64,000 bases of DNA from Puniceicoccus vermicola (GTDB taxonomy: Bacteria; Verrucomicrobiota; Verrucomicrobiia; Opitutales; Puniceicoccaceae): contig NZ_JACHVA010000118.1 of assembly GCF_014230055.1 (NCBI RefSeq), positions 1-64,000 on the forward strand. Direction: 5' to 3'. Numbering within the stretch: position 1 is the first letter of the stretch; the number at the start of each line of letters is the position of its first letter. A program made the position numbers and the translations under genes. Under the pieces are notes generated by a model. That model saw only the letters and a program-made list of their open reading frames with translations, made no database searches and had not been told where the DNA came from. Of this stretch, positions 57,950 through 62,158 are shown piece after piece.

Positions 57950-57976
57950 CACGACTAAAGTCATGCGAGAACGGAA
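57950..57976 (+). repeat. 27-nt dispersed repeat, copy 1
   Basis: A near-identical copy (26 of 27 nt) lies at 61929-61955 in the same orientation. The core GACTAAAGTC is itself a palindrome. A hairpin (GGGAG/CTCCC) precedes it at about 57921-57940, as at the second copy. It looks like a REP-type intergenic repeat, and the two copies bracket the exosortase module. Confidence 0.8.
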
Positions 57977-58047: not shown

Positions 58048-58316
58048 TACCGAATTTAGTAAGGTTTGACTGTTATGGTGCAGCGCAGAATCGAAGCAGC
58101 GCAAGGCGCAGGGATCGGGTTCGTATCGAGATACGCTCCAATCCCTGCAACGCCGCGACCTTCGATTCTGGTCGCATCCCCTTGGGACGGGCGGGAAATG
58201 AGTCTGAGCGAGGCGGCCCAATTGGAGGCGGGTCTGCGACCCGTGCCATTTGGGCTAACGCTGCTCAGGCTCATTTCCCATCCCGCCATAACTGTCAAAA
58301 CTTCCTAAATTCGGTA
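58048..58316. mobile_element. Miniature inverted-repeat element with internal hairpins (269 bp)
   Basis: Terminal inverted repeats of about 33 bp (58048-58080 and 58284-58316; about 85-90% match) begin TACCGAATTTA. They are flanked by a 3-nt direct repeat TAA on each side (58045-58047, 58317-58319), as expected for an insertion. Inside are two further long hairpins: 58086-58170 (arms CAGAATCGAAG/CTTCGATTCTG) and 58193-58279 (16 of 17 pairs). Because of the symmetry, both strands carry similar frames starting MTVM; they are not genes. The element lacks a transposase and is therefore non-autonomous. Confidence 0.85.
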
Positions 58317-58386
58317 TAAGTCCTTTTTATCTTCGTTTCCATCAATTCTCCATAAAACCTCCACATTCGCCTGCTAGGATGGAACG

Positions 58387-58947
58387 ATGAAAAGATCCTT
58401 CGCGGCGAATCGGAAACTGATTGCTCTCCTCTGCTTGGTGAGCGCCTTGGCTTTGAGTCGGGGATCATTCCCCTTATTGACCGATTTTTTCATCTTCCCC
58501 GTAGGATACCTCGCCTCTTGGACAGTCGGAACGGTCCCCGAGCTCGTCTCCGGGGGCGTCCAGTTCACTAGCACCGGGACCCAATTTCTGGTGAGCCAGG
58601 CCTGTAGCGGAATCGTATTCTTCGGACTATTGGTCGCCATGGCGGCTCTGGTTGCGCCCACCCCGAGAAGATTGATCCAGATTCTACCCTATATTTACCT
58701 CTATGCCGTCGCCAGCAACGTCGCGCGGATCGTGTTCTGGACCTTGATTCTTCCACCCCTCGAAGCTTTCTTCAATCCCCGTTACCTGACACCAGGACAC
58801 GAACTTGCGGGGGCGATCGTCTACCTCCCTGCGGCGATTCTCGCCCAATTCCTTCTGAGTCGGCACTTTGAGCGAAAACGCCCTGAAAAACCGGAAGCGA
58901 CCGAAGTTCTCTCAGATTCAACCTCTCTACCCGACTCCCTATCATGA
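58387..58947 (+). CDS. Exosortase-like membrane protease/transpeptidase
   Basis: A 186-aa protein with about five transmembrane helices. It carries the exosortase catalytic pattern: Cys73 in QACSGIVFF, Arg114 in ASNVARIVF and His138 in GHELAGAIVYLP. A charged tail of ~25 residues follows. The size and place directly upstream (4-nt overlap) of one PEP-bearing protein match the single-substrate exosortase K type. It should cleave or transfer the C-terminal sorting signal of that partner in the inner membrane. The assignment to the K subfamily is inference. Confidence 0.8.
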   Translation: MKRSFAANRKLIALLCLVSALALSRGSFPLLTDFFIFPVGYLASWTVGTVPELVSGGVQFTSTGTQFLVSQACSGIVFFGLLVAMAALVAPTPRRLIQILPYIYLYAVASNVARIVFWTLILPPLEAFFNPRYLTPGHELAGAIVYLPAAILAQFLLSRHFERKRPEKPEATEVLSDSTSLPDSLS

Positions 58948-61745
58948 GCTCCTCCAAAAACCTCCCAAACTTCTTGGAACGTCCCTGGCTCGCAGGGGTC
59001 TGGTGGACAATAGCGCAGATCGTACAACTTCTTCTAAACCTGCGGGACTATGGACTCATCGCCGACGAGCTGGCTGGGAAGGAGCAGACGTATTGGGTCA
59101 TCGTCTTGACGATAAATGGAGTCTCCATTCTGACTGGGATCGCGATTTGGGCCCTCGCACGCCATCCGCGCACAGAACTCGCATCCAGTCTTCTCTGCAT
59201 TCTCCTTCCAACGGCCTACATTCTCTATGGATCGATTGGGGCCGAAGGAGCCATTCCGGACAACGTTGACACTTGGATTCTCCATCCCGGCAATCTGGTC
59301 TTCAATCTTTGGGCCTGCCAGGTTCTCGCCAGTCTCCTGGGCTTTGCCAAAATTTGTTGCCGCATCACCCAGTCAGGAGGATTCTCGACCCTTCTATCTG
59401 GCACTCTTTTGGTCGTCGCTCCAGTTAGCGTCCTTTGGCTTCTTGTTCAAATTCTCTCCGACCTTTTCGAGAGTACAGACATCCTTTTCACCCTCTTTGT
59501 CTCTGTGGTGGCGGTAATTACGGTGGTCCTCGCCTTCGGCGTTTTCCTCGTCGCCTTCTCCCTGATGCGCGCAGTTTTCAACGAACAAAACCGGCCAAAG
59601 TCCATCGCTCTGACCCTGTTGATCTCGCTGGTGATGCCGATTGCAGGACTGGTCCTCAACCGCACAATTCCCTTTCCTCAGGACTACCAAAATCCAACCG
59701 TATATTGGCTTACGCTAATCAATGCGATGATCCTCGCCATCCCTGTATTGAATAGACCATGGCAAAAAAAGATCCAGCTCTGGGCCACGGCCGCTGTTCT
59801 TCCCTTTTCCCTCTACTTCTTCTGCGCCTTTCTACCATTCTATCCCCTTTCGGCCTTGGCGATGATCGTAGTCGGATCCGGATTCCTCATCCTGACTCCT
59901 GTCCTGCTTTCCATTCTCCACCTCGGGAAGATCGTTTCCCTTTCACGCGTCCTCCCCACCCGCCGAAATGTTGCCACTCTCATCATCCTGGGCGTTGCGG
60001 TACTTCCTTCGATCTTCTTGTTGGGGATGCTGCGGGACCGGGCCGCGATTCTGGAAGCGCTAGACTACTCGCTCTCTCCTGATCCAGCCTCACTAGAGAC
60101 CCCGCCCAGTCCGAAGCAGGTCGAGAGGGTAATCCGGGCGGTGAAACGACAAAGCCGCGGTATCCAATATCCTATTCTATCGCCTCTCTACCGAGCGATC
60201 GTCCTCCAGGGAATGACGCTCCCCGACTCCTCTTTGACTCAACTCGAGACCACCTTCGGACTGGCAGAAACCGAGGATCACGATTTTCGGGCCGGATTCT
60301 GGGGGATGCGCGAAAGAGGGCCAAACTTACAGAGAAGGATGCGCCCTGCATCCGTTCTCGCAGAGATGGCAGATGCTGAACTTTCCTCATCTTCCCCAAG
60401 CCATGCAACTCTCTCCATGGAGGTTATCAATCAGTCCAGAGATTCACGCACTGGCTTTCGTCAGGACTTTAAGATTCCTCCCGGAGTGTGGGTAGCCGGA
60501 GCCGAGCTACTGATCGGCGACTCGTGGAAACCTGCGGACATCCGCGAAAGGCGCAGTGCGGAATGGATCTACCGAACGATAGCCTCCGAACGCATTCGCG
60601 ACCCTCTTCTCGTCACTCTCGATCGCCCAGGGCAAGTAGAAATCGAAGTATTCCCCGTTGACCGAGGATCCCCACGCCAACTGCGCATCAATTTGCGCAG
60701 CGCCGCAAATCTTCCAATAACCCTCGGAATGAAAGATACCCTTTTGGAGACTCATATGGAGCAGGACTCGATCCTCCAACTAGGTTCCAATCTCCTCATC
60801 CCCGCCAACCTATACCTCCCTCAACACACCCTGCGTCCGGTGTACAACCTGTTCCTGGACCGATCCACCGCCGCTGCCGACATCGGGGCATTTCAAAATG
60901 AACTGATCACCACATTAAAAAGGATCCCGATTGACGCATCCCTGCGGTGGTGGATCATCCGCGACGGAATCCACCAGCTGCCCGACTTACCTCAGAAAAA
61001 CACGCCTGCATTGCTCGCAGAAACCGATCTTAGCGAACTCATTCGACCGCAATCTGGAGGCCGCAGCAAAGGCCACGTGCAATTGGCAATTATCCACCAA
61101 TGGCGCCAAGCTCTTCAGAACGGTAAAGTCCCCGAAAGCTATCCGGTCATCGTTCCCATTGGCTGGCCGAGCTACTATACCGAGTTCACGCGAATTACCC
61201 AGTTCGTGGATCCTTACCTCGGCGCGACGCCGCAATGGATTCTCGACCAGAAAGAAGAAATTCCCGCCGCCGACAAAAAAGTTTCGATCTTCCGACGTAA
61301 GGATCAAACGGGCGTTGTTCCTGCCGAGCTAAAGAACGACACCGCCCGGTGGGCTTTCTTGTTCGAGACCAGTGGAACTCCAGAAATACTCAACACGGAT
61401 CGCCAATTCGAAGAGATTTCCACCAGTCTCCTCCAAATAACACGAGTTCCCGATCCTGCCTTGCGAGCCTACCTCACCGAGGCCTATTCCCGATACAACC
61501 CGGCCCTCCACGAGGACGTTCGAGAAAACCTGATTAGCCTCTCCAAGAAATTCTCGGTCCTCCTTCCCGAGACCGCCCTCATTGCCTTGGAAAACTCCGC
61601 CCAGGAAGAATTTCTGAAACGGTTGGAGAAGATCGGCCAAGATGGACACTCCGGTCTATCCTTCTCCGAAACTCCCGAACCGACCACCTTACCTGTAATC
61701 GGCTTCACCATCTGGATGCTGGTGCGAAGACACCGAAAAGAATGA
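58944..61745 (+). CDS. Polytopic MSEP/PEP-CTERM-like protein with VIT-like domain
   Basis: A 933-aa protein. Residues ~15-370 hold about 10 transmembrane helices. A region at ~490-587 resembles a VIT domain: FKIPPGVWVAGAELLIGDSW, then RRSAEWIYRTIASERIRDPLLV, then VEIEVFPVDRGSPRQLRI. The C-terminus is a sorting signal: TPEPTTLP (PEP at residues 911-913), a short hydrophobic segment, then RRHRKE. Together with the coupled exosortase gene this is the layout of the MSEP-CTERM family, a dedicated substrate of XrtK. The exact MSEP motif is replaced by SETPEP. Function after sorting is unknown. Confidence 0.8.
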   Translation: MSSSKNLPNFLERPWLAGVWWTIAQIVQLLLNLRDYGLIADELAGKEQTYWVIVLTINGVSILTGIAIWALARHPRTELASSLLCILLPTAYILYGSIGAEGAIPDNVDTWILHPGNLVFNLWACQVLASLLGFAKICCRITQSGGFSTLLSGTLLVVAPVSVLWLLVQILSDLFESTDILFTLFVSVVAVITVVLAFGVFLVAFSLMRAVFNEQNRPKSIALTLLISLVMPIAGLVLNRTIPFPQDYQNPTVYWLTLINAMILAIPVLNRPWQKKIQLWATAAVLPFSLYFFCAFLPFYPLSALAMIVVGSGFLILTPVLLSILHLGKIVSLSRVLPTRRNVATLIILGVAVLPSIFLLGMLRDRAAILEALDYSLSPDPASLETPPSPKQVERVIRAVKRQSRGIQYPILSPLYRAIVLQGMTLPDSSLTQLETTFGLAETEDHDFRAGFWGMRERGPNLQRRMRPASVLAEMADAELSSSSPSHATLSMEVINQSRDSRTGFRQDFKIPPGVWVAGAELLIGDSWKPADIRERRSAEWIYRTIASERIRDPLLVTLDRPGQVEIEVFPVDRGSPRQLRINLRSAANLPITLGMKDTLLETHMEQDSILQLGSNLLIPANLYLPQHTLRPVYNLFLDRSTAAADIGAFQNELITTLKRIPIDASLRWWIIRDGIHQLPDLPQKNTPALLAETDLSELIRPQSGGRSKGHVQLAIIHQWRQALQNGKVPESYPVIVPIGWPSYYTEFTRITQFVDPYLGATPQWILDQKEEIPAADKKVSIFRRKDQTGVVPAELKNDTARWAFLFETSGTPEILNTDRQFEEISTSLLQITRVPDPALRAYLTEAYSRYNPALHEDVRENLISLSKKFSVLLPETALIALENSAQEEFLKRLEKIGQDGHSGLSFSETPEPTTLPVIGFTIWMLVRRHRKE

Positions 61746-62158
61746 ACGGAGGATGCTCCTCGACTGCAAGGGTCTCGTGAAAAACGCTCCCGATTGACTT
61801 TCCCGGTATGAGCTCGTCGAAAGCAGTCATTCGACCGAAATGGCCCAATGCATTCAAACAGCGATAGGTTTAGCGGAGCGGACAAGGTCTCCGAATGTCG
61901 CGCCGGGACATCTCCTCTGCAAGAATCGCACGACTAAAGTCATGCGAGAGCGGAAGAGCTCTCCTGAAAAGCAACTGCCTAATTGCCGCAGTTGCTGCTA
62001 CCTGCCAGACGATCCTAGACGAGATCCATCAGTGCTTGTGCATCAAAAGAAAAGGATCCCTCATAGTCCTGATTCCCTGTGAAGAAGGATTGCGATCTCA
62101 AGGGATCCTTGCCTCACTGAATGTAGAGCAACCCGCAAATGCCCCTACACCCTGCCCC
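61746..62158. other. Intergenic region with REP copy 2
   Basis: This 413-nt stretch holds no gene I can support. It contains the second copy of the 27-nt repeat (61929-61955) and a hairpin CGGAG/CTCCG at about 61874-61893, in the arrangement seen near 57921-57976. The rest is unremarkable. It should hold the promoter for the VWA gene. Confidence 0.6.
61929..61955 (+). repeat. 27-nt dispersed repeat, copy 2
   Basis: It matches 57950-57976 at 26 of 27 positions, same orientation. It lies after the exosortase substrate gene, so the two copies form direct repeats around that ~4-kb module. Confidence 0.8.

Follow-up and report, generated by a model that had tools for sequence, protein, structure and literature searches.

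Two overlapping genes in a 64,000-nucleotide stretch of Puniceicoccus vermicola DNA (contig NZ_JACHVA010000118.1, positions 1 to 64,000 of the forward strand; hereafter the window) very probably form a dedicated sorting unit, in which a small exosortase recognises and cuts the C-terminal tail of the large membrane protein encoded directly downstream. The proposal is carried by the co-inheritance of the two genes, invariant active-site residues in the enzyme, the predicted topology of the substrate and a correspondence between tail type and resident exosortase, all of which were found by computation. The genome sequence comprises 5.2 Mb in 143 contigs and is 96% complete. An earlier note, made from the letters of the window alone, had described an exosortase-like protein overlapping a protein of 933 amino acids by ATGA, and both open reading frames were found where the note had placed them:

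58387..58947, + strand: small exosortase-family gene (open reading frame of 186 amino acids, lacking the N-terminal helices seen in classical exosortases)
58944..61745, + strand: gene for a polytopic MSEP-CTERM family protein (933 amino acids; TIGR04286 243.7 bits, cut-off 150)
58944..58947, + strand: ATGA stop/start overlap of the exosortase and substrate genes, read from the sequence

Conservation of the Gene Pair

Membership of the MSEP-CTERM family was defined by the score against TIGR04286 and not by the literal motif. The 933-amino-acid protein belongs to the family by this definition (E 3.4e-72) and is the only full match to the model in its genome. An MSEP protein over the cut-off was found in 22 of 288 sampled genomes, and fragments were found in two more. 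The pair is present in divergent genomes, with identities of 18–47% for the substrate and 17–39% for the enzyme, and in most relatives the two genes overlap likewise by 4 bases, or by more. Since the pair recurs across divergent genomes, the pairing is not a matter of chance. The genes flanking the pair in the congener G131 are unlike those in the window; the unit is therefore limited to two genes, and a wider operon was rejected.

A scan of named genomes with a single protein as query gave no relatives, and an alignment-based search of the named genomes gave 118. Of 80 named MSEP loci, belonging to several phyla, 65 have a short exosortase gene immediately upstream, and so do most loci of the phylum. 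Two candidates for loci without an adjacent enzyme were rejected, one (G205) because it lies at a contig end and the other (L161/G165) because its enzyme is encoded approximately 2 kb upstream.

A profile built from 19 MSEP-adjacent enzymes scored at least 116 bits in 21 of the 288 genomes. Each of the 21 is an MSEP genome, and the next match reached 50 bits. This gap is partly built in, as 19 of the 21 matching genomes had supplied the profile, and a tree was therefore made. Here the 19 MSEP-adjacent exosortases grouped in a single clade (support 100/98), apart from 32 other exosortases that came mostly from the same genomes. Enzyme distances and substrate distances, taken pair by pair, were correlated (r 0.79, Mantel p 1e-4), although shared species descent alone could give the same result.

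The earlier note had proposed that a single PEP-CTERM protein in the genome would support dedicated pairing. This test failed, as 61 PEP_CTERM matches exceeded the cut-off and four exosortase-family matches were found in the genome, i.e., three besides the window's enzyme; the dedication therefore needs other arguments. Two genomes, G117 and G145, yielded the adjacent enzyme as their sole exosortase and gave no PEP_CTERM match. The congener G210 yielded 58 PEP-CTERM matches as well as four exosortase matches, the latter in long frames (312–523 amino acids); an MSEP protein and a member of the 19-enzyme clade were both missing. On sequence evidence, a dedicated pairing is supported by the restriction of the clade to MSEP genomes, by the two isolated pairs and by the joint absence from G210.

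The Small Exosortase

The protein of 186 amino acids passes the exosortase/archaeosortase signature TIGR04178 (37.3 bits, cut-off 23). The Cys, Arg and His that the earlier note had seen in the expected places were, together with Asn111 and Gly142, found without variation across 19 exosortase homologues that are 17–39% identical to the window's enzyme:

58603..58605, + strand: Cys73 codon, presumed nucleophile (invariant in 19 homologues; outer end of a helix in the predicted model)
58726..58728, + strand: Arg114 codon, with Asn111 nearby (both invariant in 19 homologues)
58798..58800, + strand: His138 codon, with Gly142 nearby (both invariant in 19 homologues)

The predicted structure is confident (predicted local distance difference test, pLDDT, 90.4). 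A search of solved structures with this model gave nothing below E 0.4, which says nothing against the family.

The enzyme reaches 20.8 bits against the XrtK model TIGR04287, below the cut-off of 55. Among the relatives searched from the Planctomycetes-Verrucomicrobia-Chlamydiae (PVC) group only G117 passes this cut-off, with 102.8 bits; its exosortase lies inside the 19-member clade, on a long branch, and its substrate has a literal MSEP tail. Common descent with XrtK is supported by the tree, and with a score below the model cut-off the window's enzyme is best described as XrtK-like, not XrtK.

Another exosortase-family protein, of approximately 300 amino acids and with AECNGFGLL replacing ACSG, was observed once per congener, as L002 (G000:C53), L089 (G131) and L090 (G210). 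No NCBIfam subfamily reaches its cut-off on L002.

The Polytopic Substrate

The following features were assigned within the 933-amino-acid protein:

58983..60032, + strand: 11 predicted transmembrane helices, residues ~14–363, N-terminus inside and domains outside (hydropathy, positive-inside charges, model helices)
60363..60758, + strand: VIT-like beta-sandwich, residues ~474–605 (PF08487 20 bits; homologues; inter-alpha-inhibitor heavy chain fold)
60828..61280, + strand: vWA-like domain, residues ~629–779, metal site not intact (structure alignment; alignment columns)

The earlier note had counted about ten transmembrane helices. The protein is indeed polytopic, and the count was corrected to 11 N-terminal helices and a tail helix. 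Hydropathy averaged over 22 homologues showed these 11 helices and, less strongly, the tail helix, while the loop charges over the same homologues alternate as expected from the positive-inside rule for a cytoplasmic N-terminus. With 11 helices and the N-terminus in the cytoplasm, the domains and the PEP motif should therefore face the periplasm.

The VIT-like domain suggested by the earlier note is not carried by its Pfam score alone (20.0 bits, below the gathering threshold of 26.5); it is upheld by its homologues, as 20 of 22 family members match VIT (E 0.1 or better), and by its fold. The best solved fold for the predicted substrate structure (pLDDT 76.3; predicted template modelling score, pTM, 0.77) was inter-alpha-inhibitor heavy chain 1, with a Foldseek E of 5.6e-7 and a VIA-align Z of 8.5 (root-mean-square deviation, rmsd, 8.6 over 354 residues). 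Judged by the homologue matches, a VIT-like domain is a feature of the whole MSEP family.

Residues 629–779 aligned to a vWA domain with a VIA-align Z of 9.0 (rmsd 3.7, 142 residues). The metal ion-dependent adhesion site (MIDAS; DxSxS, Thr, Asp) is incomplete: Asp639 and Ser641 are kept, the Thr and the second Asp are absent family-wide, and the first metal-site strand is gapped in 4 of 22 relatives in the alignment. Low-confidence linkers (residues 444–470 and 910–920) were found around the domains in the model. As a separate observation, three relatives from the phylum (G229, G093, and G023) contain very long open frames of approximately 3000 amino acids with VIT-like matches.

The Sorting Tail

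Two further features lie at the end of the substrate gene:

61566..61622, + strand: conserved pre-tail segment TALIALENSAQ, family consensus TSYIVVENSAQWKML (alignment)
61671..61745, + strand: sorting tail consisting of PEP, a short hydrophobic stretch and RRHRKE (TIGR02595 20.2 and PF07589 13.7 bits on the tail; Pro913 invariant in 22 homologues)

The protein ends in SETPEP-TTLPVIGFTIWMLV-RRHRKE, which confirms the PEP motif, hydrophobic stretch and basic tail described before. The tail alone reached 20.2 bits against TIGR02595 (cut-off 16), compared to 13.9 bits for the whole protein, and remained below the PF07589 cut-off of 20.7. A six-frame search of the genome with the PEP_CTERM model found the tail with E = 0.008. 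In nearly all of 22 relatives the tail follows a segment with the consensus TSYIVVENSAQWKML, which resembles the stretch after the vWA domain in the second VIT-vWA protein of this genome.

The earlier note had singled out PEP in place of MSEP. The spelling is real, as the tail reads Glu-Thr-Pro-Glu-Pro and the literal Met-Ser-Glu-Pro does not occur in it, but it is no anomaly, since the family motif varies. The tails of 65 relatives with an adjacent enzyme were M[ST]EP (38), PAP (14), PEP (5), SEP (3) or other (3), and two were cut off; a P[LIV]D-type tail was found in none of these 65 named relatives. As far as the compared sequences show, motif spelling varies across the MSEP family and the last Pro alone does not change in the alignment; Bacteroidota and G117 spell the motif MSEP, and the PVC relatives spell it PEP or PAP. 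L034, which ends in another frame with the tail TPEPELVLMVLAACLMAWGHRRSRS, was excluded from the alignment.

Tail Type and Resident Exosortase

Some MSEP loci have no adjacent enzyme. Seven such loci were found in Hymenobacter, where the proteins carry PID-CTERM tails (23.5–41 bits, cut-off 26, five of seven over). XrtX exceeded its cut-off of 170 in six of the seven genomes (178–257 bits), and no exosortase was found in the seventh, a metagenome-assembled genome. Hymenobacter amundsenii, the nearest tree branch to these loci, has XrtK only (104.6 bits, cut-off 55), located beside an MSEP-tailed orthologue. The XrtX/PID-CTERM system (NF046081/NF046080) is linked to the MSEP family through these orthologues, whose tails are of PID-CTERM type where XrtX is the exosortase found; it was not found in the genome of the window and is relevant only as an outcome of a tail switch. 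In Hymenobacter sp. BT559 (G288) we also observed a single frame, L221:1231-2301, that fuses XrtX and an XrtX-associated membrane protein domain (178.5 and 65.9 bits).

Independently of Hymenobacter, G162 (contig of Lentisphaerae bacterium GWF2_57_35) and L150, in a PVC group, were found without an adjacent enzyme. Both have canonical PEP tails (PF07589 27.5 bits, over gathering, for G162; TIGR02595 22 for L150), and these accompany EpsH/XrtA-type enzymes. G177, the sister of G162, combines a VPDSG-like tail (PF18205 17.8, below the cut-off) with VPDSG-CTERM proteins and an enzyme resembling XrtC (236 bits, cut-off 300). These comparisons are suggestive of a rule in which the tail of an enzyme-less MSEP protein matches the resident exosortase, with a weight that comes from the consistency of the cases and not from their number. 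To a specialist, the new element may be this exchange of the tail among relatives.

Proposed Mechanism and Alternative Explanations

We propose that the 933-amino-acid protein inserts into the membrane via its 11 helices, which would place the VIT- and vWA-like domains and the PEP motif on the periplasmic side, and that its last helix would serve as sorting tail. The adjacent exosortase, with its Cys-Arg-His site toward the periplasm, would recognise this tail, cut near the proline and remove the last helix; we infer both the cleavage and the cut site. By analogy with archaeosortases and sortases, the new C-terminus would probably be passed to an acceptor, for which a lipid or glycan is a speculative choice. 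The end of the periplasmic domain would be freed or tethered elsewhere after the cut. Since the substrate is anchored by 11 helices, processing would not release the protein.

Several observations weigh against a dedicated unit of this kind. The hydrophobic stretch of the tail has approximately 14 residues and is short for a full membrane span. On the tree the adjacent enzyme was lost twice, with three outcomes for the tail, and two such events do not suffice for a phylogenetic test. The tail also exceeds the TIGR02595 cut-off, and since the genome encodes three further exosortases besides its 61 PEP-CTERM matches, another resident exosortase could likewise process it. Taken further, this would make the MSEP-type protein one more substrate of the general exosortase or exosortases and the small enzyme redundant or accessory, an explanation that we consider unlikely. 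It agrees with the tail alone passing TIGR02595 and with its place as 30th of the 61 genome matches. MSEP proteins with PEP-type tails were also found where a genome contains 10 or more PEP-CTERM matches (Mann-Whitney p 0.0003, uncorrected for descent); however, when descent is considered four independent pairs remain and p is 0.125 on the tree, and a tail type set by the PEP-CTERM count is not claimed. A general exosortase is also hard to reconcile with the small enzyme being the only exosortase found in G117 and G145, with the confinement of its clade to MSEP genomes, and with G210 keeping a PEP-CTERM set without either gene.

The tail could instead be a plain twelfth helix and the exosortase-like protein a structural partner without protease activity. 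The enzyme model without a match among solved structures would fit this, as would a substrate without signal peptide, contrary to the rule for PEP-CTERM proteins (PMC3237569). However, Cys, Arg and His would hardly be invariant in 19 such divergent homologues of a mere partner, and a tail class that changes with the resident exosortase is unexpected of a mere helix, which makes this explanation very improbable. There is also little probability that a second cut frees a periplasmic fragment, in which case exosortase processing would serve to make the VIT/vWA domain soluble and not membrane-held. The low-confidence linkers beside the domains would fit such a cut, but almost every relative retains the 11-helix part, and no second cleavage site came to light, although no search was aimed at one.

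Sequence Elements Around the Gene Pair

Just upstream of the exosortase gene, at positions 58050-58325 of the window, lies a 276-bp element with inverted-repeat ends that resembles a miniature inverted-repeat transposable element; approximately 20 full-length copies with 83–90% identity are present in the genome. The gene pair is also flanked by two identical 19-bp copies of CGACTAAAGTCATGCGAGA in the same orientation (57952-57970 and 61931-61949). These are the only two occurrences in the window, where none is expected by chance.

Comparison with Known Systems

The earlier note had likened the pair to XrtK/MSEP-CTERM (TIGR04287/TIGR04286). The two arrangements share an adjacent small exosortase and a polytopic substrate of approximately 900–1000 amino acids. 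The parallel stands for the substrate, which passes TIGR04286, and for the enzyme by the tree, where it groups with model-passing XrtK; it does not extend to the XrtK cut-off, and the window's tail differs in reading TPEP. The XrtN system (TIGR04476/TIGR04477) likewise pairs an exosortase with a VIT protein, as given by the model name. It was rejected as an assignment, since the enzyme scored 28.7 bits versus 200 and the VIT region 39.4 versus 250, a weak local similarity.

A second pair was found in the same genome (G000:C23). It consists of a VIT-vWA protein of the TIGR03788 marine sortase-target type with a PEP tail (L129:2703-6052) and an overlapping exosortase gene. The pair resembles that of the window in its VIT and vWA domains, PEP tail and gene overlap. 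In contrast, its VIT-vWA protein has a signal-peptide-like N-terminus instead of 11 helices and an intact MIDAS, and its exosortase is long and XrtQ-like with adjoining polysaccharide-synthesis genes. The whole region (L129:2703-8999) encodes the VIT-vWA PEP-CTERM protein, the XrtQ-like exosortase, a PgaA-like tetratricopeptide repeat (TPR) protein and a PgaC-like glycosyltransferase, and the arrangement of VIT-vWA protein, exosortase and TPR protein is present in both congeners. The VIT-vWA family is already known with LPXTG, GlyGly-CTERM or PEP-CTERM tails beside cognate enzymes (PMC3237569), and the MSEP family looks like a polytopic counterpart of this VIT-vWA/exosortase theme.

Inter-alpha-inhibitor heavy chain 1 (PDB 6fpy/6fpz) is the best solved fold for the periplasmic part of the substrate. 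Inter-alpha-inhibitor heavy chains shed a C-terminal pro-domain as the new C-terminus becomes ester-linked to polysaccharide (PMC7170535). Heavy chain 1 is, however, eukaryotic and secreted, with a working MIDAS and another transfer chemistry, and the likeness seen here is one of fold. For the window's substrate, the transfer of the heavy-chain C-terminus is no more than an analogy.

Relevance of the Gene Pair

The literature searched, which did not extend to the 2012 exosortase survey, nowhere names MSEP-CTERM, exosortase K/XrtK, or an exosortase joined to a VIT domain. The pair of the window is of a known kind that has apparently not been studied, and it stands out by its divergent enzyme and the PEP spelling. 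Our results suggest that, in Verrucomicrobiota and relatives, the XrtK model of NCBI fails to recognise the greater part of its clade. The substrate with its 11 helices also contradicts the statement that proteins of PEP-CTERM type always start with a signal peptide (PMC3237569).

As a tentative and rather doubtful generalisation, the family might stand for a general way of assembling the surface: a dedicated exosortase would put the new C-terminus of an inter-alpha-inhibitor-like periplasmic domain, held in the membrane by 11 helices, on a glycan or lipid and so tie the membrane to an envelope polymer, with the body being kept and the tail (MSEP, PAP, PEP, VPDSG, or PID) exchanged per resident exosortase. 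The question that the pair addresses is how exosortases alter their substrates, and why some exosortases serve one protein. Orthologues bearing the tail type of the resident exosortase are a natural swap experiment, and make the specificity of enzyme for tail directly testable. In some genomes no exosortase system other than these two genes was found, which makes them the simplest place to ask about exosortase function.

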